A DNA stretch of 33,361 bases. Source: Conchiformibius sp. GTDB taxonomy: Bacteria; Pseudomonadota; Gammaproteobacteria; Burkholderiales; Neisseriaceae. How positions within the stretch are numbered: position 1 is the first letter of the stretch; each line of letters opens with the position of its first letter. A program made the position numbers and the translations under genes. The stretch covers positions 1 to 33,361 of the forward strand of contig JAUNOT010000006.1 of NCBI GenBank assembly GCA_030537065.1, written 5' to 3'. Under the pieces are notes generated by a model that did not search any database, was not told the DNA's origin, and saw nothing but the letters and a program-made list of their open reading frames with translations. This document shows positions 5,972-27,436 of the stretch, one piece after another.

Positions 5972-7027
5972 ATGACCATTTTAGCCGAAGTCAAAAAACT
6001 GGGACAACATATCTGGTTGGACAACCTGTCGCGCTCGCTGGTACGCGGCGGCGGTTTGGCCGATATGCTGGCGCAGGGCGTGTGCGGCGTGACCTCCAAC
6101 CCCGCCATTTTCCAAAAAGCCTTTGCCTCCGACCCGCTTTATCAAGACGACATCGCCGCTTTAAAAGCGAAAAACACCGATGCCAAAATCATTTACGAAA
6201 CCTTGGCCGTAGCCGACGTTCAGGCAGCCTGCGATGTGTGCCGCGCCGAATTTGACGCAGACAGCGGCAACAGCGGTTTTGTCAGCTTGGAAGTGTCGCC
6301 CGAATGGTCAAACGACGCAGCCGCCACCGTTGCCGAAGCCAAACGCCTGCACGCCGCCATCAACCGTCCGAATGTGATGATTAAAGTACCGGCCACCGAT
6401 GCCGGTTTGGACGCGCTGCGCGAGCTGGTGGCGGCCGGCATCAGCGTCAATCTGACCCTGCTGTTTTCACGCGAACAAACCCGCAAAGCCTATGCCGCCT
6501 ATTTTGACGGCATCCGCCAACGTTTGGCCGCAGGCGGCAGCGTAAACGGCATTCAAGTGGTGGCCAGCTTCTTTATTTCGCGCGTGGATGCCGCTTTGGA
6601 CGGCCAACTGCCCGAAGCCTTGCGCGGCAAAACCGCCATTGCCTTGGCCAAAGCCGCCTACCGTGATTGGCAGCAAGTGTTCGCCTCCCCTGAAGCAGCA
6701 GAATTAAGCGCACAGGGGATGAACCCCGTACGCCTGCTGTGGGCCTCTACCGGCGTGAAAAACCCTGACTATTCCGCCACTTTGTATGTGGACGAACTGA
6801 TTGGCGAAAACACCGTCAATACCGTTCCCGATGCCACTTTGGCGGCCTTTATCACCAGCGGCACCGCCCGCGCCACGCTGACGGAAAACGCCGATGCCAC
6901 CGAACAAGTGCTGCGCGATGTAGCGGCAGCCGGTGTGGACGTGGAAGCCTTGGCCGCGCGTTTGCAAAGCGAAGGGCTGAAACAGTTTGAAGAAGCCTTT
7001 GCCAAACTGCTTGCGCCTTTGGCCTAA
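5972..7027 (+). CDS. tal: Transaldolase
   Basis: A cytoplasmic enzyme of the non-oxidative pentose phosphate pathway; it transfers a dihydroxyacetone unit from sedoheptulose 7-phosphate to glyceraldehyde 3-phosphate. The 351 residues fit the longer bacterial transaldolase subfamily. The N terminus has the expected [14 protein letters not shown] and [13 protein letters not shown]. The Schiff-base lysine is Lys138 in [12 protein letters not shown]. Other family signatures are [21 protein letters not shown] and [16 protein letters not shown] lies about ten bases before the ATG. A DUS lies inside the gene at 6219-6230 in a surface-type segment. It is divergent from kdsD and its upstream region carries the Correia-like element. 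A DUS hairpin terminates it. Confidence 0.96.
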
Positions 7028-7037
7028 ACCGCACAAA

Positions 7038-7078
7038 CAGGCTGCCTGAAAACGGTTTTTCCGCTTTCAGGCAGCCTG
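7038..7078. terminator. DUS-pair bidirectional terminator between tal and the secreted-protein gene
   Basis: CAGGCTGCCTGAAAACGG (7038-7055) pairs with 7061-7078 around a TTTTT loop, with one mismatch. It sits between two convergent genes and can serve both. The downstream bases on the top strand are AT-rich (AATAATATAATTTATT). Confidence 0.75.
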
Positions 7079-7092
7079 AATAATATAATTTA

Positions 7093-7446
7093 TTAATAAC
7101 AACCAAATTGATTACATGTTCGGCTGAAATAGTTTCCATCAGAATCCGTACCGGTTGTGAAGCGGTAATTTCCAACACGTTGCGTGGTAGAGTTCCAGCT
7201 ATTACCATCCTTATCATAACCATTTGTATAAGTGGTATTACCAATTCTGTTAGATGTTTGAGACCAACTACTCCCTGTATTGGCGTTATAACCATTTACT
7301 GTAGTTATATTACCCAAGCGGTTGATTTGATAAGAATTTCCAGTATTATAGTCATAACAACTACGCACACTGCCACTTCCAATACATTGGGCAAATACGG
7401 CTCCGTTTAAAGATAAAAGAAATAGAGAAAAGACAAGTTTTTTCAT
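7093..7446 (-). CDS. Small secreted cysteine-containing repeat protein, function unknown
   Basis: 117 residues. Residues 1-19 form a clear signal peptide (MKKLVFSLFLLSLNGAVFA) and the mature chain starts at Gln20. The rest is made of about three tandem units of 23-24 residues, each beginning R-[LIV]-G-N and containing N-G-Y and G-[NS]-S-W: RLGNITTVNGY, RIGNTTYTNGY and RVGNYRFTTGT. Two cysteines precede the repeats (QCIGSG, RSCYDY) and two follow (RTCNQFGCY), so two disulfides are possible. It is rich in Asn, Thr, Ser, Gly and Tyr. AAGGAG lies seven bases before the ATG. Similar small proteins occur, as I recall, in Moraxella and Acinetobacter, without known function. The gene is AT-rich and divergent from an XRE-type regulator. 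Confidence 0.85.
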   Translation of the reverse strand: MKKLVFSLFLLSLNGAVFAQCIGSGSVRSCYDYNTGNSYQINRLGNITTVNGYNANTGSSWSQTSNRIGNTTYTNGYDKDGNSWNSTTQRVGNYRFTTGTDSDGNYFSRTCNQFGCY

Positions 7447-7551
7447 GGTAAACTCCTTATTGTGGGAAAATCACTATGAAATATTTTGCATAACCAAACC
7501 ACCTTGCACAAGAGCGTAAAAGTGCAGAAATTGTCAGAAAAGAGCAAAATA

Positions 7552-7959
7552 ATGGAAACTTACGAAAAAATCCGTTTAATTAGGGAACTAAATCAATGGT
7601 CTCAAGAATATATGGCTGAAAAATTAAAAATGTCGCCAAGCGGGTACGCCAAAATTGAACGGGGCGAAACCCGCTTAAATTTAGCTCGTTTAGAACAAAT
7701 TGCTACTGTACTCGGTATAGATATTTGGGAGTTAATGCAAAAAGAAAAACAAGGTTTAGTGGTACAAATCAATGACGGGGGATACCATAATGGTAGCGGA
7801 ACAATTACATTTTATGGTACAGAAAATACAGAAGAAATCGCCCGTTTACAATTAATTATTCAGCACAAGGATGAGCTACTCGAGCAAAAAAACCAAGAAA
7901 TTAAAGCTTTAAAGGAAGTATTGGATGTATTGAAAGCCCATTTGAGTCTAGATAAATAA
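7552..7959 (+). CDS. XRE-family helix-turn-helix regulator with C-terminal coiled coil
   Basis: 135 residues from the ATG at 7552; an extension from 7486 lacks a ribosome-binding site and precedes the conserved domain. Residues 4-57 form a Cro/C1-type domain (IRELNQWSQEYMAEKL, SPSGYAKIERGETRLNLARL, IATVLGID), so it should bind DNA as a dimer. The middle is Gly/Asn-rich. About residues 100-132 are heptad-like (ARLQLIIQHKDELLEQKNQE, then IKALKEVLDVLKAHL), a likely dimerising coiled coil. The upstream spacing of 105 bp is shared with the divergent secreted-protein gene, so it may regulate itself and that gene; this is inference. AT-rich composition suggests acquisition. Confidence 0.88.
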   Translation: METYEKIRLIRELNQWSQEYMAEKLKMSPSGYAKIERGETRLNLARLEQIATVLGIDIWELMQKEKQGLVVQINDGGYHNGSGTITFYGTENTEEIARLQLIIQHKDELLEQKNQEIKALKEVLDVLKAHLSLDK

Positions 7960-7965
7960 TTTTTT

Positions 7966-7977
7966 AGGCAGCCTGAA
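7966..7977 (+). repeat. DNA uptake sequence (AGGCAGCCTGAA) closing the AT-rich cassette
   Basis: It lies seven bases after the stop codon of the XRE regulator and is preceded by a T run (TTTTTT). Together with the DUS pair at 7038-7078 it brackets the AT-rich two-gene segment. Confidence 0.8.
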
Positions 7978-8005
7978 ACCATTGATTACCAACAAACTAT
8001 CAACC

Positions 8006-14808: not shown

Positions 14809-15836
14809 TTTTAAGCGTATCCGATCTTAACCTTTCTTTCGGCCGCCATGCCGTGCTGCAACAGTTCGGCTTTGATTTGGCCGACGGCGAAACCGCCTGC
14901 CTGCTCGGTTCGTCCGGCTGTGGCAAAACCACCGCCCTGCGCTGCATTGCCGGTTTTGAACATGCCCAACACGGCCGCATCGTCCTGAAAGGCCGCGAAC
15001 TGTTTTCAGGCAGCCTGAACGTGCCGCCGCATCAACGGCGCATCGGCATGGTGTTTCAGGACTACGCCCTGTTTCCGCATTTAAACGTGGCCGACAACAT
15101 CGCCTTCGGGCTGAACGGCCACGATGCCGCCGCCCGCCGCCGCCGCGTCGGCGAACTACTGGAACTGATTGGGCTGCCCGAGTGCGGCAAACGCTATCCG
15201 CACCAGCTTTCCGGCGGCCAACAGCAGCGTGTCGCCCTTGCGCGCGCCCTGGCGCCACGCCCCGACCTGATTTTGTTGGACGAGCCGTTTTCCAGCTTGG
15301 ATGCCGACTTACGCACCCGTCTGTCGCAGGAAGTACGCGCCCTGCTCAAACAAGAAAACACCAGCGCGGTATTGGTTACCCACGACCAGCACGAAGCCTT
15401 TGCCATGGCCGACCGCATCGGCATGATGGCGCAAGGCCGCCTGCAACAATGGGACAGTCCGCAAAACCTGTACCACCGCCCCGCCACACCCGAAGTGGCG
15501 GCCTTTGTCGGGCAAGGCGCGTGGCTGGACGGCACACTGAACGGCGCAGGCAGCACCGATACCGTGCTGGGCAGCGTTTCAGGCAGCCTGAAAGACGGCG
15601 CGGCAGGCAGCAAAGTGCGCGTATGGGTTCGCCCCGAACAACTGCGCTGCCAAACAGATGAAAACGGCAACGCACAGGTATTGGCGTGCGAGTTTAAAGG
15701 CAGCCACTGCTTCATCCGCCTGCAACTGGACAACGGCGAAACCTTAACCGCACAAACCACGCTGCCCTTAGCAGCAGGCGCACGGGTGGCGGTGTCGTGG
15801 GCAAACGGGGTAGAATGCGCGGTGTTTGCCGCATAG
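14805..15836 (+). CDS. fbpC: Ferric-iron ABC transporter ATP-binding protein
   Basis: ATPase that drives the iron importer, bound to FbpB on the cytoplasmic face; 343 residues. The start is the ATG overlapping the fbpB stop by ATGA. Walker A is at about residues 35-43 (GSSGCGKTT), the Q-loop in GMVFQDYALFPH, the ABC signature LSGGQQQRVALARAL, Walker B LILLDEPFSSLD and the H-loop VLVTHDQHEAF. The C-terminal third is a TOBE-type regulatory domain. Two in-frame DUS (15005-15019 and 15577-15593) encode SGSLN and SGSLK; both fall in loops, one before the Q-loop and one in the C-terminal domain. A strong terminator follows. Confidence 0.95.
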   Translation: MILSVSDLNLSFGRHAVLQQFGFDLADGETACLLGSSGCGKTTALRCIAGFEHAQHGRIVLKGRELFSGSLNVPPHQRRIGMVFQDYALFPHLNVADNIAFGLNGHDAAARRRRVGELLELIGLPECGKRYPHQLSGGQQQRVALARALAPRPDLILLDEPFSSLDADLRTRLSQEVRALLKQENTSAVLVTHDQHEAFAMADRIGMMAQGRLQQWDSPQNLYHRPATPEVAAFVGQGAWLDGTLNGAGSTDTVLGSVSGSLKDGAAGSKVRVWVRPEQLRCQTDENGNAQVLACEFKGSHCFIRLQLDNGETLTAQTTLPLAAGARVAVSWANGVECAVFAA

Positions 15837-15865
15837 GCTTGACCGATTGTTCAGGCAGCCTGAAC

Positions 15866-15900
15866 AACAAAGGGACGGATAAACCATCCGTCCCTTTGTT
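15866..15900. terminator. Bidirectional rho-independent terminator after fbpC
   Basis: AACAAAGGGACGGAT (15866-15880) is perfectly complementary to 15886-15900, with a five-base loop and a T-run on the top strand (TTGTTTTT). It separates fbpC from the convergent acyltransferase gene. A palindromic DUS at 15850-15864 lies directly before the stem. Confidence 0.88.
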
Positions 15901-15901
15901 T

Positions 15902-17584
15902 TTAAGCGCAAACGTAATCCAACAATGCCCGTCCGCCCTGTTGCACCGCCGCGATAAAGCGTTCCACTTCGTCCTGCTGTTCCGCCTGATGGCTGACGGT
16001 AAACAGCCAGCCCGCCGCCGTCAGCGTGTAGTTAATGCCCAAACCGCCTGCCGAAGTGGGCGCGAAGGCAAAATTCACCACCAAAGCATCATCGCCCAGG
16101 GTAGAAGTAGATAAAAAGTCGGTGGTAAACACGCGGTAGGCAGGGCTGTCAAACCATGTGCATTCAACGCCCTCGTCCAGTGCTTCCCGATGCAGGCCGA
16201 GCAAATGGCGGTTCGCGCCCAAACCCATTTTGGCGGCTTTAACACGGGCTTTATGTTCCGCCAGCGCGGCATCCAAAGCGACACGGTCAGGGCTGCCTGC
16301 CAGCAGTCCACGCACAAACGCCAGTGATTCCTGCGACACAGGGCGTACGCATTCGGTGCGTCCGCATTGGAAATGGCTTACGTCCACCGCTTCATAAGTA
16401 TTGCGTACCTGCCCGTAGGCCGCCAACTGCGCGTATTGCAGCACAAACTGCATCAGCGCGTCTTGGCTGATGCCTTTGGGTATGACCGCACCCTCAAACG
16501 GCACGGTGGTGCTGACCACGCGCATGGCAGCGGCACGGGCGGCATAGTGCTGTTGCCATTGCGGCCACTGTGCTTTCAGGCTGTCGTCCAAATGCCAGCC
16601 GAAACGTTGCGGCACATCGGGTTTTTCCGAAAAATTTTTTTCAGGCAGACTGCCTAATTTATCGGCAGCGCGGGTAACCACGGCTTTTAACGTGCCGCCG
16701 TCTTCCCAAGTGTGTTCGCAATGCAGATACAGACGGCCGGTGGCGGTGTTGTAGCGGAAAGTCATCGGTTTATAAAACCAAATGCCGCAATCGGGGGCAA
16801 AGGCGGCATAGGCCAAATCTTCATCGGCGTTTAAGGCATGGTCGTCCAAGCTGATGTGGAACAAATCCGCTTCCAAATCGTCCAACAACACGGCATTGGC
16901 CGGTTGGCGGCGCAATTCGGCATACAGCGCGGCACCGTCATCGCCGCCCACGCAGGCCGCGACACCCAAAGGATAGGGGTTGTCGTCGTTTTCCGCCAAA
17001 ATCTGTTCCAGTTGGGAACGGAATACGCAGACAGGCAGGACTTCGTCTGCCTTATCAAAGGCCGGCAAACGGTAATACCAACCACGGTACAACACGCCGA
17101 TGGTGCTGCTGTTGTCGGCAAAACGGTAATCGTCGCAGGCTGCCTGCGGAATCCGCGCCGCCCCCTGCACAATCCACCATTGGTTCATACACACCGGATT
17201 GCCCTGCGGCGACACCGGCGTTTCCACACGGCCGTGGCGGTAGTCGGCGCAGACGGCCGCCAATGCCGCCGCCCATTGCGCCAAATCCGCACCCTGCATC
17301 TGAATTTGAAAACCGACGTTGCTGGCCAAAGGCAAAGGCTCGCGGATACGCAGATAGCCGTCCAGCCAAGTATCAATCAGCCAACTGCGGTCGTGCAGAC
17401 GTTCGGCGCGGCGTTGCAGGGCTGCCTGAAGTATGGGCGCGGTGTCCTGTTGGAAAGCACGGGCGGCGGTTTCCGCTTCGGCATAATCTTCATCACTCAA
17501 TAAGGGGCGCACCTGCTGCAAAAAACGCTCAAGCGTGCCGTCCAGTTCGGGAACGGGCAGACGCGGCGGAGTCGGTCGGGTCAT
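15902..17584 (-). CDS. Choline/carnitine O-acyltransferase family enzyme
   Basis: 560 residues, close to animal and fungal carnitine acetyltransferases (about 600). The family transfers acyl groups between CoA and carnitine or choline. The N terminus has the hallmark LPRL-type start (RLPVPELDGTLERFLQQVRP). The catalytic His is His291 in CEHTWEDGG, the equivalent of EHSWGDG in eukaryotic enzymes. YEAVDVSHFQCGRTECVRP (about 398-416) matches the conserved YE..S...F..GRTE..R segment. No signal peptide or membrane segment is seen, so it should be cytoplasmic. It is the last gene of an operon with a BCCT transporter and a microprotein, 12 bp after the latter, which supports a quaternary-ammonium substrate. 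Which alcohol and acyl group it uses cannot be read from sequence. Confidence 0.9.
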   Translation of the reverse strand: MTRPTPPRLPVPELDGTLERFLQQVRPLLSDEDYAEAETAARAFQQDTAPILQAALQRRAERLHDRSWLIDTWLDGYLRIREPLPLASNVGFQIQMQGADLAQWAAALAAVCADYRHGRVETPVSPQGNPVCMNQWWIVQGAARIPQAACDDYRFADNSSTIGVLYRGWYYRLPAFDKADEVLPVCVFRSQLEQILAENDDNPYPLGVAACVGGDDGAALYAELRRQPANAVLLDDLEADLFHISLDDHALNADEDLAYAAFAPDCGIWFYKPMTFRYNTATGRLYLHCEHTWEDGGTLKAVVTRAADKLGSLPEKNFSEKPDVPQRFGWHLDDSLKAQWPQWQQHYAARAAAMRVVSTTVPFEGAVIPKGISQDALMQFVLQYAQLAAYGQVRNTYEAVDVSHFQCGRTECVRPVSQESLAFVRGLLAGSPDRVALDAALAEHKARVKAAKMGLGANRHLLGLHREALDEGVECTWFDSPAYRVFTTDFLSTSTLGDDALVVNFAFAPTSAGGLGINYTLTAAGWLFTVSHQAEQQDEVERFIAAVQQGGRALLDYVCA

Positions 17585-17596
17585 GATTACATCCTG

Positions 17597-17731
17597 TCAA
17601 TCGTCATGTTCAAAAAAAGCCAGCTTGACCACATAGGCCAAAAACAGCAAAGCCGCCAACAACATCAGCGTTTCCGTCAGATTGTCCTGCCAGCTTTGAT
17701 TCCAATACAAAGGGTTGGTTTTAGCGTCCAC
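17597..17731 (-). CDS. 44-residue single-span membrane microprotein
   Basis: The start is the GTG at 17731, seven bases after GGAGGA; the ATG at 17782 lies inside the BCCT gene and has a charged, unlikely N terminus. The protein begins VDAKTNPLYWNQSWQDNL and then has one strongly hydrophobic span (TLMLLAALLFLAYVVKLAFF) ending EHDD. Its first 11 bases overlap the 3' end of the BCCT gene in another frame, and the acyltransferase starts 12 bp after its stop. Overlap and a strong ribosome-binding site imply a translated, coupled gene. By analogy with small subunits of other transporters it may stabilise the BCCT protein; this is inference. Confidence 0.75.
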   Translation of the reverse strand: MDAKTNPLYWNQSWQDNLTETLMLLAALLFLAYVVKLAFFEHDD

Positions 17732-19271
17732 CGCCGTCCTCCGTGCGCGTATCGCGCCGCAACTGCCGCCACAACGCGGCAAACCATAAATACATTACAA
17801 ATACAAAGGGAAAGCCGGAAAACGAACCGACTGCCTTAATCCCCTCAATTTTACCGGTTACCACCACCGCATAAGCAATCAGCGTCATCAGCACGCCCCA
17901 CACCACCGCACGGGTTTTGCTTTCGCTGCGGCCGTCCCGTCCGGTCATCACGCCCAAAGAAATGGCCGCGCTGGTAACGGTGGTCACAATAAAGCCCAAA
18001 AACAGCACCACCGTCAGCGGCTTGGTCGCACCGTTTAGCGGCAGCATATTCAGCAAATGATAAAACGCGCCTTCATAATCGCCCTTTTCGGCAATTTCCG
18101 CCAGCTTGCCCGTGCCTTCCACCGTATCCAGCAGGCTGAATCCGGAAAACACCGCAAACCAAATTACAATAAAACCAGCGGGAACAAGCACCGATGCCAA
18201 AACAAACTCGCGCAACGTGCGGCCGCGCGAAATCTTCGCCAAAAACACGCCCACAAACGGCGCCCACGTTACCCACCACACCCAATACGCCATCGGATAC
18301 CACACCACCCAATCGCGTTTGTGAAACACATACAGCTCAAACGAATGATGCACTGTTTTAGTCAGAATATTGCCCACCGCCACCGTCATCGTACTCAAAA
18401 AATAATGGGTCGGCCCGACCAAAAAAATAAACACCAGCAGCAGTACCGACAAATAGACGGTCAAATTACCCAACAGGCGCATACCCTTTTCAATCGGCAA
18501 CACCGAACCGCCGATATACAGCGCGGCCAATACCGCCAACACCGCCGTTTTCCACAACATTCCCTCAAACGCTGTCGAACCGGTGATGATTTTCAAGCCC
18601 GATGCGATTTGCGCCGCCGCCATGGCGATGGAAGACGATACCGACATGGCAATCGACAGCACCGCCATGCCCGTTACCAAAATACCCAAGGGTTTCGCCC
18701 AGCGTTTGCGGCGGAACGCCGTTTGCAAAGGCGCGGCAGGCGTGCATTCCGTGCCGTGCTGATAAGTAAAATACGCCATCACCAAGCCCGCCACCATATA
18801 CAGCGACCATGCCGGAATCCCCCACACATGCAAGGCCAAACTCATGGCATTGGATACTTGTTCGTGGCGCGGCAAGTGGGCTGCCTGAACACCGATAGGC
18901 GAATGAAAATAGTGCCATAAGGCCTCAATCGGCCCGAAAAAAACAATGCCCACGCCGATACCGGCGGTAAACAGCATATTCATCCACGAAAAAAAGGAAA
19001 AATCCGGCTTGGCATCCGCGCCGCCCAAACGGATGTTGCCGAAACGGCCGGGCAAAGCCACCGCCAAGCCCACCAGCAAAGCCAAAAGCGGCAGCCACAT
19101 AATCAGCCAGTCAAATTCCAAATAGAAAAAGGCACTGACGGCGGTAACCGCACCCGTCAATGCCTGCGGGCGCAACACTGCCGTCAGCGCCATTGCGCCG
19201 ACCAATAAGGCCGTCCAGAGAAAATAGTTGGGACGTTTGCCGTCGGGCAAATCGGAAGGAGTGGGGGACAT
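17721..19271 (-). CDS. BCCT-family betaine/choline/carnitine transporter
   Basis: Inner-membrane secondary transporter, 516 residues, with about twelve hydrophobic spans. Family motifs: GIGVGIVFFG (the BCCT glycine motif), and WVWWVTWAPFVGVFLAKISR followed by GRTLREF (the BCCT tryptophan region plus ISRGRT). The ATG at 19271 is two codons inside a longer TTG frame; AGGG lies just upstream. The helix normally lining the substrate site is divergent here (SSSIAMAAAQIASGL), so the substrate cannot be named with confidence. It is the first gene of a three-gene operon with a microprotein and a carnitine/choline acyltransferase, which favours carnitine or choline. It could also be a plain osmoprotectant transporter. 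Confidence 0.92.
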   Translation of the reverse strand: MSPTPSDLPDGKRPNYFLWTALLVGAMALTAVLRPQALTGAVTAVSAFFYLEFDWLIMWLPLLALLVGLAVALPGRFGNIRLGGADAKPDFSFFSWMNMLFTAGIGVGIVFFGPIEALWHYFHSPIGVQAAHLPRHEQVSNAMSLALHVWGIPAWSLYMVAGLVMAYFTYQHGTECTPAAPLQTAFRRKRWAKPLGILVTGMAVLSIAMSVSSSIAMAAAQIASGLKIITGSTAFEGMLWKTAVLAVLAALYIGGSVLPIEKGMRLLGNLTVYLSVLLLVFIFLVGPTHYFLSTMTVAVGNILTKTVHHSFELYVFHKRDWVVWYPMAYWVWWVTWAPFVGVFLAKISRGRTLREFVLASVLVPAGFIVIWFAVFSGFSLLDTVEGTGKLAEIAEKGDYEGAFYHLLNMLPLNGATKPLTVVLFLGFIVTTVTSAAISLGVMTGRDGRSESKTRAVVWGVLMTLIAYAVVVTGKIEGIKAVGSFSGFPFVFVMYLWFAALWRQLRRDTRTEDGGGR

Positions 19272-19378
19272 ACGCAAACCCTGTTATGGTGGATAAAGGG
19301 GCGTGTGTGTGATGGGCTTTATAATTTTTATCAAACGTAAACGCTATGCTAACATTTTGCCGCCGTAAAGCCAAGCGC

Positions 19379-19390: not shown

Positions 19391-19539
19391 AGCGGTTGTT
19401 TGGTTTCAAGCAGCCGGAAACGGAAAAGGCAGAATAATTTCTTTACAAACCAAAGTATTTAATAGAAAATCATAACTGTTGTCCCCTGTTGTCAGGTGCA
19501 GGCAGCCCTTTTTTCAACCTACCCCGAAAGAAGCAAATT

Positions 19540-20640
19540 ATGCGTACACTCTTAACCGCCCTTACCGCCGCACTGACACTCGGTGCGTGCAGCACACTGC
19601 CCACAGAACAGCCCGACCAAATGCTGCGTCAGGCAATGAAACGCCAATTCACCCACGACAACCAATACCGTTTTAACGGCGAAATGCGTTTTACCATGCC
19701 TAACCTCGGTCAAACAGAGGACGAATCTTGGGTAAAACATTTTATGGACTCCTTGTCGCTGCCGGTTAGCGGGGCGGTTGATTTACCCGCCGGCAAAGTG
19801 GAAATGACCGCAGAAATACGCTACCGCCACCCCAACGTACTGGCTTCGGTAAAACTGCCGATACTGCTGGATATGAAGCAGGCCGCACTGTATGCCGATG
19901 CCCGCGCCGTTACCACCATTACCGATTTATTGGATAAAAAATACATACCCAAAGTGGGCGACAAGATGCTGAAGCTGTCGCTGCCTGAAGAAGAACGCAA
20001 GCAATTTCCGCTTAAAACCTTGGCCAAAGCCCTGCCGGAAGCATTTGACCAAAGCTGGGCTTCTCTGCCCAAAGAGCGTTTCCAACTGCGCGAAATGGAT
20101 GAGTACGGCAAACAAAGCGGTGCCGCCTACCGTGTCGGCTACCGTGCCAATGGTAACGACAGTATGCGAATGGGGCAGGCTTTCGGCGACAGTTTGAGCA
20201 AGCAGCTGGAACAACAGGGCGGCGAAGAAGGCATCAGTGCCGAAAATTATCAAAAGGCTGTTGAGTTGCTGAAAAAAATCGGACAACTTTATCATCATCC
20301 TGCCAAATTGCTGTCGTCCGATATTCCTGCTGAAGAACAGGAAAAAATGCAGCAAACCATGCAAAAATCCATGCAGGAAATGGAAATGGACGATGATGTT
20401 TATTTGGACAGAAAAGGGCGCATGGTTGCCCGGAAAATGACTGTATTTTCCACGATTGATGACAGCGATAAGAAATTACACGCGACAATCATGTCGCGTC
20501 TCCAATACGGCAAACCGCAGTTTACCTTGCAGCCTGATGAAAATAATACGTTGAATGTGAATTGTATATTTGACAAATCACCTTGTCCGTGGGAATCTTC
20601 CGAGCGTGAGGGCGGTAAGGGGCAAACAGATAAACCGTAA
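19540..20640 (+). CDS. Putative lipoprotein of unknown function
   Basis: 366 residues from the ATG at 19540, preceded by GAAAGAAG; the frame upstream to 19489 has no signal and is excluded. MRTLLTALTAALTLGAC is a lipoprotein signal peptide with lipobox LGAC and lipidated Cys17, so it should be anchored in the inner or outer membrane, facing the periplasm. The rest is soluble, mixed alpha/beta, with a repeated-strand start (FNGEMRFTMP, KVEMTAEIRY), a Met/Glu/Gln-rich helical stretch near residues 265-290 (EEQEKMQQTMQKSMQEMEM), and two late Cys (NCIFDKSPC). I do not recognise the family. A good terminator follows. Confidence 0.82.
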   Translation: MRTLLTALTAALTLGACSTLPTEQPDQMLRQAMKRQFTHDNQYRFNGEMRFTMPNLGQTEDESWVKHFMDSLSLPVSGAVDLPAGKVEMTAEIRYRHPNVLASVKLPILLDMKQAALYADARAVTTITDLLDKKYIPKVGDKMLKLSLPEEERKQFPLKTLAKALPEAFDQSWASLPKERFQLREMDEYGKQSGAAYRVGYRANGNDSMRMGQAFGDSLSKQLEQQGGEEGISAENYQKAVELLKKIGQLYHHPAKLLSSDIPAEEQEKMQQTMQKSMQEMEMDDDVYLDRKGRMVARKMTVFSTIDDSDKKLHATIMSRLQYGKPQFTLQPDENNTLNVNCIFDKSPCPWESSEREGGKGQTDKP

Positions 20641-25352: not shown

Positions 25353-25657
25353 AGCCTAAAATCAATGCTTTTTCACATATTCGCGCAAAGAACGCAGTAC
25401 TGCAGACGGCTGTGTCTCATCAGCAGGCATTTTATCGCTGGGTTTGGACAATACCAGCCATTCGGCCGCCAAACGTTCCGCTTCCGCCTGTTCCGCCGCC
25501 GACAAATCGTCTAACAGCCAAAAATATGGTTCGGGGCTGCCTGCTTCGCGCCCTGTCAGCCATGTGCTGCGGGCATATAGCCGCAATGCCTGTGCCGCTA
25601 CACGGTTTTGCGGAACGCCGATGCCGTGCTGGTAAGCTAGGCTTAAACGCCAAGCAT
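25336..25657. repeat. Near-identical 322-bp block shared with 26406-26727
   Basis: The 3' end of the first SEL1-like gene plus its DUS matches the 3' end of the second almost base for base, with a constant offset of 1070 and only scattered substitutions. Upstream of this block the two genes diverge sharply. Confidence 0.85.
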
Positions 25658-26366
25658 CATCATAAGCAATTAAATTGGGATTGTCTGTTTTCCAATTCGG
25701 AAAATTTATCATCATCCTATACCATGATGAGTATCTGTTACCATTTTTATCCGCGATGGGTGAACCACGCTGTTGCAGCCATTGCAATGTCCTGTCCCGC
25801 CACTCGGTTTTACCCGACGGGGCGACCGGACGGATATGTTCGGCATACATACGGCGCAAAGTATCAGGCAATTCCGCATAAGCCTGTGCATTACCCTGCA
25901 TCGCCAGTTTGCCGTGTATAAAAATACTGTTACGAAACTCGCCGGCTTCCTTCGCCGCTTGGCCATACACCAAATTTAATTTTTCATGTACCGGCAGATA
26001 ACGGATGCCGTAGGGGTCGGCATACGCACCCATCGCCGTTTTGGCACGATACAGCCAATCATACGCCTGCTTGGCATCTTTTTTGACACCTGTTCCCGAC
26101 AAATACATTTCACCCAAGCGCATAGCAAATAAGGGCATACTGGGATATTTTTCCGTGCCTTGGCGGTACAGTTTTAAGGTTTGTTTGTATTGTCCCTGCT
26201 GCGCCAAACGGTCGGCGCGTGCCAACAACGCCAGCGCGGCAGGGGCTTCGTGGCGGATTTCGGGGTCAATTCGATAGGAATACGTTTCGGCGGCAGGTGT
26301 GTCCGCCCATACGGAATTAAGGCACACCGCGCACAGCAGCGCGGTTAATATAGTTTTGATTTTCAT
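25362..26366 (-). CDS. Exported SEL1/TPR-like protein, paralogue A
   Basis: 334 residues with a signal peptide (MKIKTILTALLCAVCLNSVW followed by A), so it is probably periplasmic. Helical repeat segments resemble TPR/SEL1 units: ALLARADRLAQQGQYKQTLK, YRQGTEKYPSMPLFAMRLGE, MYLSGTGVKKDAKQAYDW, and near the C terminus WRLSLAYQHGIGVPQNRVAA. SEL1-like proteins usually mediate protein-protein contacts; no enzymatic motif is seen. A same-length paralogue lies directly upstream on the same strand. The C-terminal ~95 residues are nearly identical to it, whereas residues about 100-235 are much less similar. Confidence 0.85.
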   Translation of the reverse strand: MKIKTILTALLCAVCLNSVWADTPAAETYSYRIDPEIRHEAPAALALLARADRLAQQGQYKQTLKLYRQGTEKYPSMPLFAMRLGEMYLSGTGVKKDAKQAYDWLYRAKTAMGAYADPYGIRYLPVHEKLNLVYGQAAKEAGEFRNSIFIHGKLAMQGNAQAYAELPDTLRRMYAEHIRPVAPSGKTEWRDRTLQWLQQRGSPIADKNGNRYSSWYRMMINFPNWKTDNPNLIAYDDAWRLSLAYQHGIGVPQNRVAAQALRLYARSTWLTGREAGSPEPYFWLLDDLSAAEQAEAERLAAEWLVLSKPSDKMPADETQPSAVLRSLREYVKKH

Positions 26367-26431: not shown

Positions 26432-27436
26432 TCAATGCTTTTTCACATATTCGCGCAAAGAACGCATGACCGCAGACGGCTGTGTCTCATCAGCAGGCAT
26501 TTTATCGCTGGGTTTGGATAATGCCAGCCATTCGGCCGCCAAACGTTCCGCTTCCGCTTGTTCCGCCGCCGACAAATCGTCTAACAGCCAAAAATGCAGT
26601 TCGGGGCTGCCTTCTTCGCGCCCTGTCAGCCATGTGCTGCGGGCATACAGCCGCAATGCCTGTGCCGCTACACGGTTTTGCGGAACGCCGATGCCGTGCT
26701 GGTAAGCAAGGCTTAAACGCCAAGCATATTCAGGGGCTCGGCTTTGATTGTCCATTTCCCAATAAGGGGAATTTTCCATTATAGAATTCCATGATGAACG
26801 TCTGTTACCGTCTTCATCTGTTATTGGCAAACGGTGTTCCTGTAACCATTTTAACTTACTGTCGTGCCATTCTGCTTTGCCTGACGGGTCAAGCGGACGG
26901 ATATGCTCGGCATACATTCGGCGCAAATCATCAGGCAGCTCTGCATAGGCTTCGGCATCGCCCAATAGGGCAAATTTGTGTTTAATCGGCAAACCCTCCA
27001 TAAAACTCCCCGATTCCACCGCCGCTTTGCCAAGCAGAAACTCTATTTTAGGATAGACAGGCAAACGCGCGATGCCGTAGGCATCGCCGTAAACGGCTAC
27101 TGCAGCGTAGGACTGGCGCAGCCAATCATGCGCCTGCTTGGCATCTTTTTTGACCCCCATTCCTGACAAATACATTTCGCCCAAGCGCATAGCAAATAAG
27201 GGCATATCGGGATATTTTTTCGTGCCTTGGCGGTAGAGTGGCAAGGCTTGGTCGTATTGCCTCTGCTGTGCCAGATTGTCGGCGCGTTCCAGCAAGGCCA
27301 GTACGTCGGCAGGGATTTTGGCACGGACTTCAGACGCAATGTGATACAAAGGCATTTCGGCGGCGGACGCGCTGTCTGCCTGCGGAATGCAGCCTACTGC
27401 GCACAGCAGCGCGGCCAATACGGTTTTGATGTTCAT
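26432..27436 (-). CDS. Exported SEL1/TPR-like protein, paralogue B
   Basis: 334 residues, the same length as paralogue A. It begins MNIKTVLAALLCAVGCIPQA, a signal peptide; the Cys at 16 lies in VGC and might be a weak lipobox, but the following residue pattern does not settle this. Repeat-like segments are LLERADNLAQQRQYDQALPL, YRQGTKKYPDMPLFAMRLGE and MYLSGMGVKKDAKQAHDW. It probably arose with paralogue A by tandem duplication. The gap between them is 65 bp, so they may be co-transcribed. TTTGAAAGGAAAAT precedes the start. Function is unknown. Confidence 0.85.
   Translation of the reverse strand: MNIKTVLAALLCAVGCIPQADSASAAEMPLYHIASEVRAKIPADVLALLERADNLAQQRQYDQALPLYRQGTKKYPDMPLFAMRLGEMYLSGMGVKKDAKQAHDWLRQSYAAVAVYGDAYGIARLPVYPKIEFLLGKAAVESGSFMEGLPIKHKFALLGDAEAYAELPDDLRRMYAEHIRPLDPSGKAEWHDSKLKWLQEHRLPITDEDGNRRSSWNSIMENSPYWEMDNQSRAPEYAWRLSLAYQHGIGVPQNRVAAQALRLYARSTWLTGREEGSPELHFWLLDDLSAAEQAEAERLAAEWLALSKPSDKMPADETQPSAVMRSLREYVKKH

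Follow-up and report, generated by a model that had tools for sequence, protein, structure and literature searches.

A cassette of three genes, found in some animal-associated Neisseria-like bacteria, lies at positions 15,902 to 19,271 of a 33,361-nucleotide stretch of Conchiformibius sp. DNA (GenBank assembly GCA_030537065.1, contig JAUNOT010000006.1; we refer to the whole stretch as the window). The genes encode a BCCT-family transporter, a 44-residue membrane protein, and a carnitine/choline acyltransferase, and our analysis suggests that together they serve the transfer of acetyl groups between the carnitine of a host and coenzyme A (CoA). Judging from sequence comparisons, we consider it fairly probable that the cassette is a carnitine module, which would import carnitine or short-chain acylcarnitine and transfer acyl groups reversibly between carnitine and CoA.

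The minus strand carries all three genes. The transporter gene (17,721–19,271) encodes 516 amino acids from an ATG at 19,271, close to which an in-frame TTG is found at 19,277. It is overlapped by 11 bp by the 44-codon open reading frame (ORF), which starts with GTG (17,597–17,731), and after a gap of 12 bp follows the gene of the 560-residue acyltransferase (15,902–17,584). The tight same-strand packing agrees in coordinates, overlap, and gap with what the original prediction had described.

Family, fold, and active site of the acyltransferase

The acyltransferase, which is single-copy in the window's genome, matched the Carn_acyltransf family (PF00755) with an E value of 2.6e-101 over profile positions 1 to 573 of 574. 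An AlphaFold model built from 16 aligned relatives had a mean predicted local distance difference test score of 90.5. It matched all of the solved members of the family (CPT2, CrAT, COT, and ChAT) over the full length, with Z scores of 37.7 to 38.7 at 20 to 23% identity; the next fold relatives reached only Z 13. For the comparison of residues, mouse CrAT, human ChAT, mouse COT, and rat CPT2 were used as references, their sequences being taken from the PDB matches. The segment CEHTWEDGG aligned with His343 of mouse CrAT, which identifies the catalytic histidine as His291, and a GRTEC..R segment was also present. The alignment thereby confirmed the two sequence features that had originally been noted in the enzyme. 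Ser492-Thr493-Ser494 corresponds to the STS motif of the family.

The residues that line the substrate site point to carnitine. Tyr397, Thr410, and Arg459 occupy the positions of CrAT Y452, T465, and R518, have the same residue types as in CrAT, COT, and CPT2, and are invariant across the aligned acyltransferases of the Neisseria–Lautropia clade. The positions of CrAT 465 and 518 are established in this family as discriminators of carnitine and choline enzymes. A choline module, in which the transporter would import choline and the enzyme would make acetylcholine or another choline ester, would involve the same enzyme superfamily and the same transporter family, and the predicted fold is equally near to ChAT (Z 38.6). 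However, ChAT carries a signature of Val and Asn at these two positions, whereas Thr410 and Arg459 match the carnitine enzymes, and we regard choline as a very improbable substrate of the cassette. With respect to chain length, a bulky residue at the position of CrAT M564 goes with short acyl chains; M564G mutants of CrAT are present in the PDB. The window enzyme has Phe505 there, where COT and CPT2 have Gly. Based on the Tyr/Thr/Arg site and on the bulky Phe505, the enzyme is predicted to be a short-chain carnitine acyltransferase.

The enzyme also departs from CrAT at several places. An invariant Cys412 replaces T467, Asp replaces E347 as it does in ChAT, COT, and CPT2, and the loop that holds K419 and K423 in CrAT is shortened. 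Both Cys412 and the remodeled CoA loop would fit an enzyme that acts on another quaternary ammonium alcohol, imported by the transporter, or on acyl chains of greater length, and so would a small residue (Ala, Thr, or Ser) that is conserved throughout the transporter clade in place of F369 of BetP. Yet the main carnitine-contacting residues are all retained, and Phe505 stands where the medium- and long-chain enzymes have Gly; we consider a different substrate rather unlikely.

The transporter and the small membrane protein

The transporter matched PF02028 with an E value of 3.1e-115. Its orthologs in 20 other Neisseriaceae genomes were 74 to 87% identical, and the next-best matches were about 30% identical; the transporter thus belongs to a distinct clade, separated by this low identity from the other BCCT proteins of the Neisseriaceae. 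None of the NCBIfam transporter subtypes searched with the protein reached its cut-off. BCCT transporters are often carriers that act in osmotic stress, and the carnitine-type site residues would also suit a module in which imported carnitine would be a compatible solute, and its acylation a means of adjusting or storing the pool of osmolytes. However, many of the carriers, including the window's genome, have other BCCT paralogs (approximately 24 to 33% identity) that could serve this purpose, and osmoprotection does not need acetylation. An osmolyte role is therefore unlikely in our view.

We compared the binding site of the transporter with those of BetP, Escherichia coli CaiT, the choline transporter 9vbn, and 8ybq, with the BetP numbering anchored at WAWWISW. 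The transporter and its orthologs retain the BetP aromatic residues W189, W194, Y197, W373, W374, and W377, which in the window protein are W149, W154, Y157, W331, W332, and W335 (numbered without the initial Met; one higher in the full protein). Their glycine motif reads GIGVG, with Gly in place of the Asp found in the GIGID motif of the choline transporter. A charged residue in this motif has been described for proton-coupled choline-type BCCTs (PMC6562126), and the Gly of the transporter would fit a zwitterion such as carnitine and speaks against the import of choline. Taken together, the residues of enzyme and transporter would favor carnitine over choline.

At the ion sites, the Na1 threonines of BetP (T246 and T250) are replaced by Ile and Val in the transporter and its orthologs, and the Na2 hydroxyls (BetP T467 and S468) are kept in the clade as Thr-Thr, or as Thr-Ser in two Lautropia proteins. 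Among the ion-site positions that were compared, the transporter is like CaiT only in its missing Na1 threonines. DddT, a sodium-dependent carrier of dimethylsulfoniopropionate, shares the absence of the BetP Na1 threonines and the Thr-Thr pair at Na2 (PMC13270143), so that the ion coupling of the transporter cannot be read from these residues.

The 44-codon ORF between the two larger genes is a genuine gene under purifying selection. A Pfam search with its product gave no match, but its conservation extends over 21 Neisseriaceae genomes and Lautropia, in homologs of 41 to 69 amino acids with the consensus YWNQSxQDNxxETxMLxLxLxFLxYVVKLAFF, which consists of a YWNQ..DN..ET segment and one hydrophobic helix, visible as a hydropathy peak. 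Among 11 aligned homologs, the proportion of nonsynonymous differences (pN) was lower than that of synonymous differences (pS) in all 55 pairs (mean 0.28 versus 0.73). The ORF therefore encodes a real protein, and the small membrane protein that the original prediction had placed here is a conserved one.

This protein probably is the partner of the transporter rather than of the enzyme. It occurs in exactly the same 21 of 83 Neisseriaceae genomes as the BCCT ortholog. In six genomes (G018, G019, G028, G053, G009, and G035) the acyltransferase gene lies elsewhere, and the small ORF, whose position was here read from profile matches, is still no more than about 60 bp from the BCCT gene. It is absent from genome G046 and from Stenoxybacter, both of which have the acyltransferase without this transporter clade. 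Since the small protein stays beside the transporter gene when the enzyme gene moves and is absent where the transporter is absent, it goes with the transporter. Outside the Neisseriaceae, the order sample contained it only in G373, a genome that also has the acyltransferase and whose cassette region matches a Lautropia locus (L036), and no further genome of the class sample has it.

Distribution, linkage, and descent of the cassette

Our survey covered the Pseudomonadota plus one Clostridiales metagenome-assembled genome (MAG). The acyltransferase was found in 24 of the 83 Neisseriaceae genomes, in one of which (G021) it is a remnant and in another (G050) split between two frames. It was present in 5 of 349 genomes of the order sample, in 6 of 369 genomes of the class sample (the window's own genome and 5 others), in 3 of 259 genomes of the phylum sample (its own and 2 others), and in none of 14 control genomes, and the expectation that such enzymes are uncommon in bacteria thus held in these samples. 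Against a collection of named genomes, a query with the single protein found no relative, and an alignment-based query recovered Neisseria sicca, N. dentiae, N. iguanae, N. wadsworthii, N. weixii, and Lautropia MAGs as named carriers. More distant relatives of the enzyme are present in Psychrobacter phenylpyruvicus, Stenoxybacter, and a Clostridiales MAG.

Within the Neisseriaceae, enzyme and transporter occur together: 21 of the 83 genomes have both, none has the transporter only, 3 have the enzyme only (one as a remnant), and 59 have neither (Fisher p 8e-17, ignoring shared ancestry). Most carriers retain the order of BCCT gene, small gene, and acyltransferase gene, as do four Lautropia MAGs in which the flanks are unrelated. 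The linkage to a quaternary ammonium importer that had been proposed from the window therefore extends to a specific BCCT clade in every one of the 21 genomes with both genes. Outside this clade, the acyltransferases of Psychrobacter, Stenoxybacter, and the families f132 and f199 do not lie beside a BCCT gene, so that independence from BCCT genes applies to these relatives and not to the enzyme of the cassette.

The association could in principle stem from common descent within Neisseria, the two genes being mere neighbors, as two related genera account for most of the carriers and the test was not corrected for phylogeny. However, the pair persists when the genes are far apart (0.3 to 1.2 Mb in the four unlinked genomes that have both on one contig), it is also found in Lautropia with different flanks, and an intact transporter never occurs without the enzyme in the 83 genomes. 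We find it hard to credit that descent accounts for the association.

Two genomes hold traces of the cassette. In G021, an acyltransferase remnant (L064:5962-6468) is present and the rest of the cassette is missing; in G044, only fragments of the BCCT gene are present (L072), and again the rest is missing. We read both as signs of gene decay, and the fragments in G044 as a sign of loss. The patchy presence in Neisseria and the remnants in other species suggest a trait that is gained and lost with the niche.

In an unrooted tree of the enzyme, with eukaryotes represented by four mammalian proteins, the sequences from Neisseria, Lautropia, Stenoxybacter, Psychrobacter, and f199 formed one fully supported group, and the mammalian enzymes, the Clostridiales protein, and the f132 proteins fell outside it. 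The description of the enzyme as eukaryote-type is therefore apt for the fold but not for its place in the tree, where it belongs to a separate deep bacterial clade and not among the mammalian enzymes. In this tree, the Lautropia sequences branched inside the Neisseria group, although a single Neisseria clade was not firmly rejected (p 0.053 in the AU test), and the BCCT tree did not resolve the point. In view of these two results, we did not retain the donation of the cassette from Neisseria to Lautropia that the enzyme tree suggests. Because the cassette is common to both genera, its transfer between them, in either direction, is likely.

Two of the divergent families have different surroundings. 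The PF00755 proteins of the gammaproteobacterial family f132 adjoin a photolyase gene (L052:5896-7683, L053:5887-7830, and L054:160-1932), carry Arg where the catalytic His would be, and are without the Tyr, Arg, and Ser-Thr-Ser residues of the site; from these replacements, they may be noncatalytic or have another function. In family f199, the acyltransferase gene comes directly after genes for gyrase/topoisomerase IV subunits (L051:5962-7671 and L055:5989-7758), and the L055 protein has kept the His and lost the carnitine-site residues.

In the window itself, an inverted repeat on the minus strand (15,860–15,906; 21-nt arms, 90% complementary, with a 5-nt loop) lies directly 3′ of the acyltransferase stop. 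It contains a terminator-like site (15,889–15,873) of a kind that is common in the region, and it is plausible that the repeat is a terminator common to the acyltransferase gene and a convergent ABC transporter gene ending at 15,836. Upstream of the transporter gene, a divergent 383-residue ORF (19,489–20,640) has a lipoprotein-like start and no match in Pfam or NCBIfam. Farther away, two adjacent minus-strand ORFs of 334 residues each (25,362–26,366 and 26,432–27,436) are possibly a tandem duplication, and the G+C content is 0.37 at 7001–8000, compared with about 0.59 in the flanking kilobases. The sequences AGGCAGCCTGAA and AGGCTGCCTGAA occur 25 and 26 times in the window, with approximately none expected, and GCCGTCTGAA occurs once; the two repeats look like a DNA uptake sequence dialect that differs from that of most Neisseria.

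Proposed function and relation to known systems

From the identity of the genes, predicted fold, conservation, co-occurrence, and site residues, we infer carnitine as the substrate, a short chain length, and an accessory role of the small protein. The BCCT transporter would bring in host-derived carnitine and/or short-chain acylcarnitine, the one-helix protein would serve it as an accessory subunit or regulator, and the acyltransferase would reversibly move acetyl, or another short acyl group, between carnitine and CoA. Of the possible directions, the most useful would be the formation of acetyl-CoA from imported acetylcarnitine, or the parking of excess acetyl groups on carnitine to free CoA.

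We searched ten genomes for carnitine catabolism with the E. coli proteins YeaW, CaiB, and FadB as queries. YeaW matched only in G046 (31%, partial) and not in the window's genome, CaiB had no match in any of the ten genomes in a search without a positive control, and FadB had partial matches in five of them, none in the window's genus. With neither a YeaW-like nor a CaiB-like enzyme found in the window's genome, it is likelier that carnitine serves as an acyl carrier than that it is broken down by those two routes, and the most likely role of the cassette would be such an acyl-carrier use of carnitine.

Several points weigh against this carnitine module. In genome G046 and in the divergent bacterial members, the enzyme occurs and this transporter clade is missing; the enzyme can therefore function in the absence of the transporter. 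The p value for the association of the two takes no account of phylogeny. The specificity was transferred by residues at 22 to 24% identity. The aligned loop in the region of CrAT K419 and K423 retains at most one of the mammalian CoA-binding lysines; with these lysines mostly gone, the affinity for CoA may differ. Moreover, the completeness of the window's genome is 91%, no positive control was available for CaiB, and the search for carnitine breakdown covered the YeaW, CaiB, and FadB queries.

More tentatively, the cassette could be a bacterial carnitine shuttle of the mitochondrial type, a possibility that we regard as doubtful. The BCCT transporter and its one-helix subunit would exchange external acetylcarnitine for internal carnitine, and the enzyme would make acetyl-CoA without ATP. 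If true, this would let animal-associated bacteria tap the acetylcarnitine of their host directly.

The enzyme and transporter families were already known. In the open-licence literature, we found no account of the two being coupled in a conserved cassette that includes a small membrane protein of its own, nor a report of a bacterial carnitine acetyltransferase linked to a BCCT transporter or in Neisseria. To our knowledge, carnitine acetyltransferases have been studied almost entirely in animals and fungi, and with the small protein a companion of a BCCT transporter would be described for the first time. A rare bacterial enzyme clade, together with the specific transporter and the previously unnamed small protein to which it is tied, offers a concrete system in which acetyl exchange between bacterial CoA and the carnitine of the host can be tested.

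With mammalian CrAT (PDB: 1ndb and 1nm8), the enzyme shares the predicted fold over its full length (Z of about 38), the catalytic His, the STS motif, the Tyr/Thr/Arg site, and a bulky residue at the M564 position. It differs from CrAT in its identity of 21 to 24% in structural alignments, in Asp for Glu347 and Cys for Thr467, in the shortened CoA-lysine loop, and in belonging to a separate bacterial clade. ChAT (PDB: 2fy2) has the fold and the catalytic His in common with it, but Val, Asn, and Asn at the positions of CrAT 465, 467, and 518, where the window enzyme has Thr, Cys, and Arg. The transporter shares the BCCT family and the aromatic residues with the glycine betaine transporter BetP, with DddT, and with the antiporter CaiT, and with DddT also the missing Na1 threonines and the Thr-Thr pair at Na2 (PMC13270143). 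It differs from BetP in D470 and the neighboring motif (TTVTSA instead of TSADSA) and in the Ile and Val at Na1, from CaiT in its glycine motif (GIGVG), and from all three in having a dedicated one-helix companion protein. The nearest parallels to the cassette as a whole are the caiX-cdhCAB-hocS operon of Pseudomonas and the aci01347 cluster of Acinetobacter, in which carnitine import is likewise linked to an enzyme of short-chain acylcarnitines (PMC5806209, PMC6562126). These operons combine an acylcarnitine hydrolase, through which Pseudomonas uses short-chain acylcarnitines (PMC5806209), with carnitine degradation, whereas the cassette has an acyltransferase instead. Unlike a hydrolase, an acyltransferase would save the energy of the acyl bond, the acyl group being kept as a thioester.

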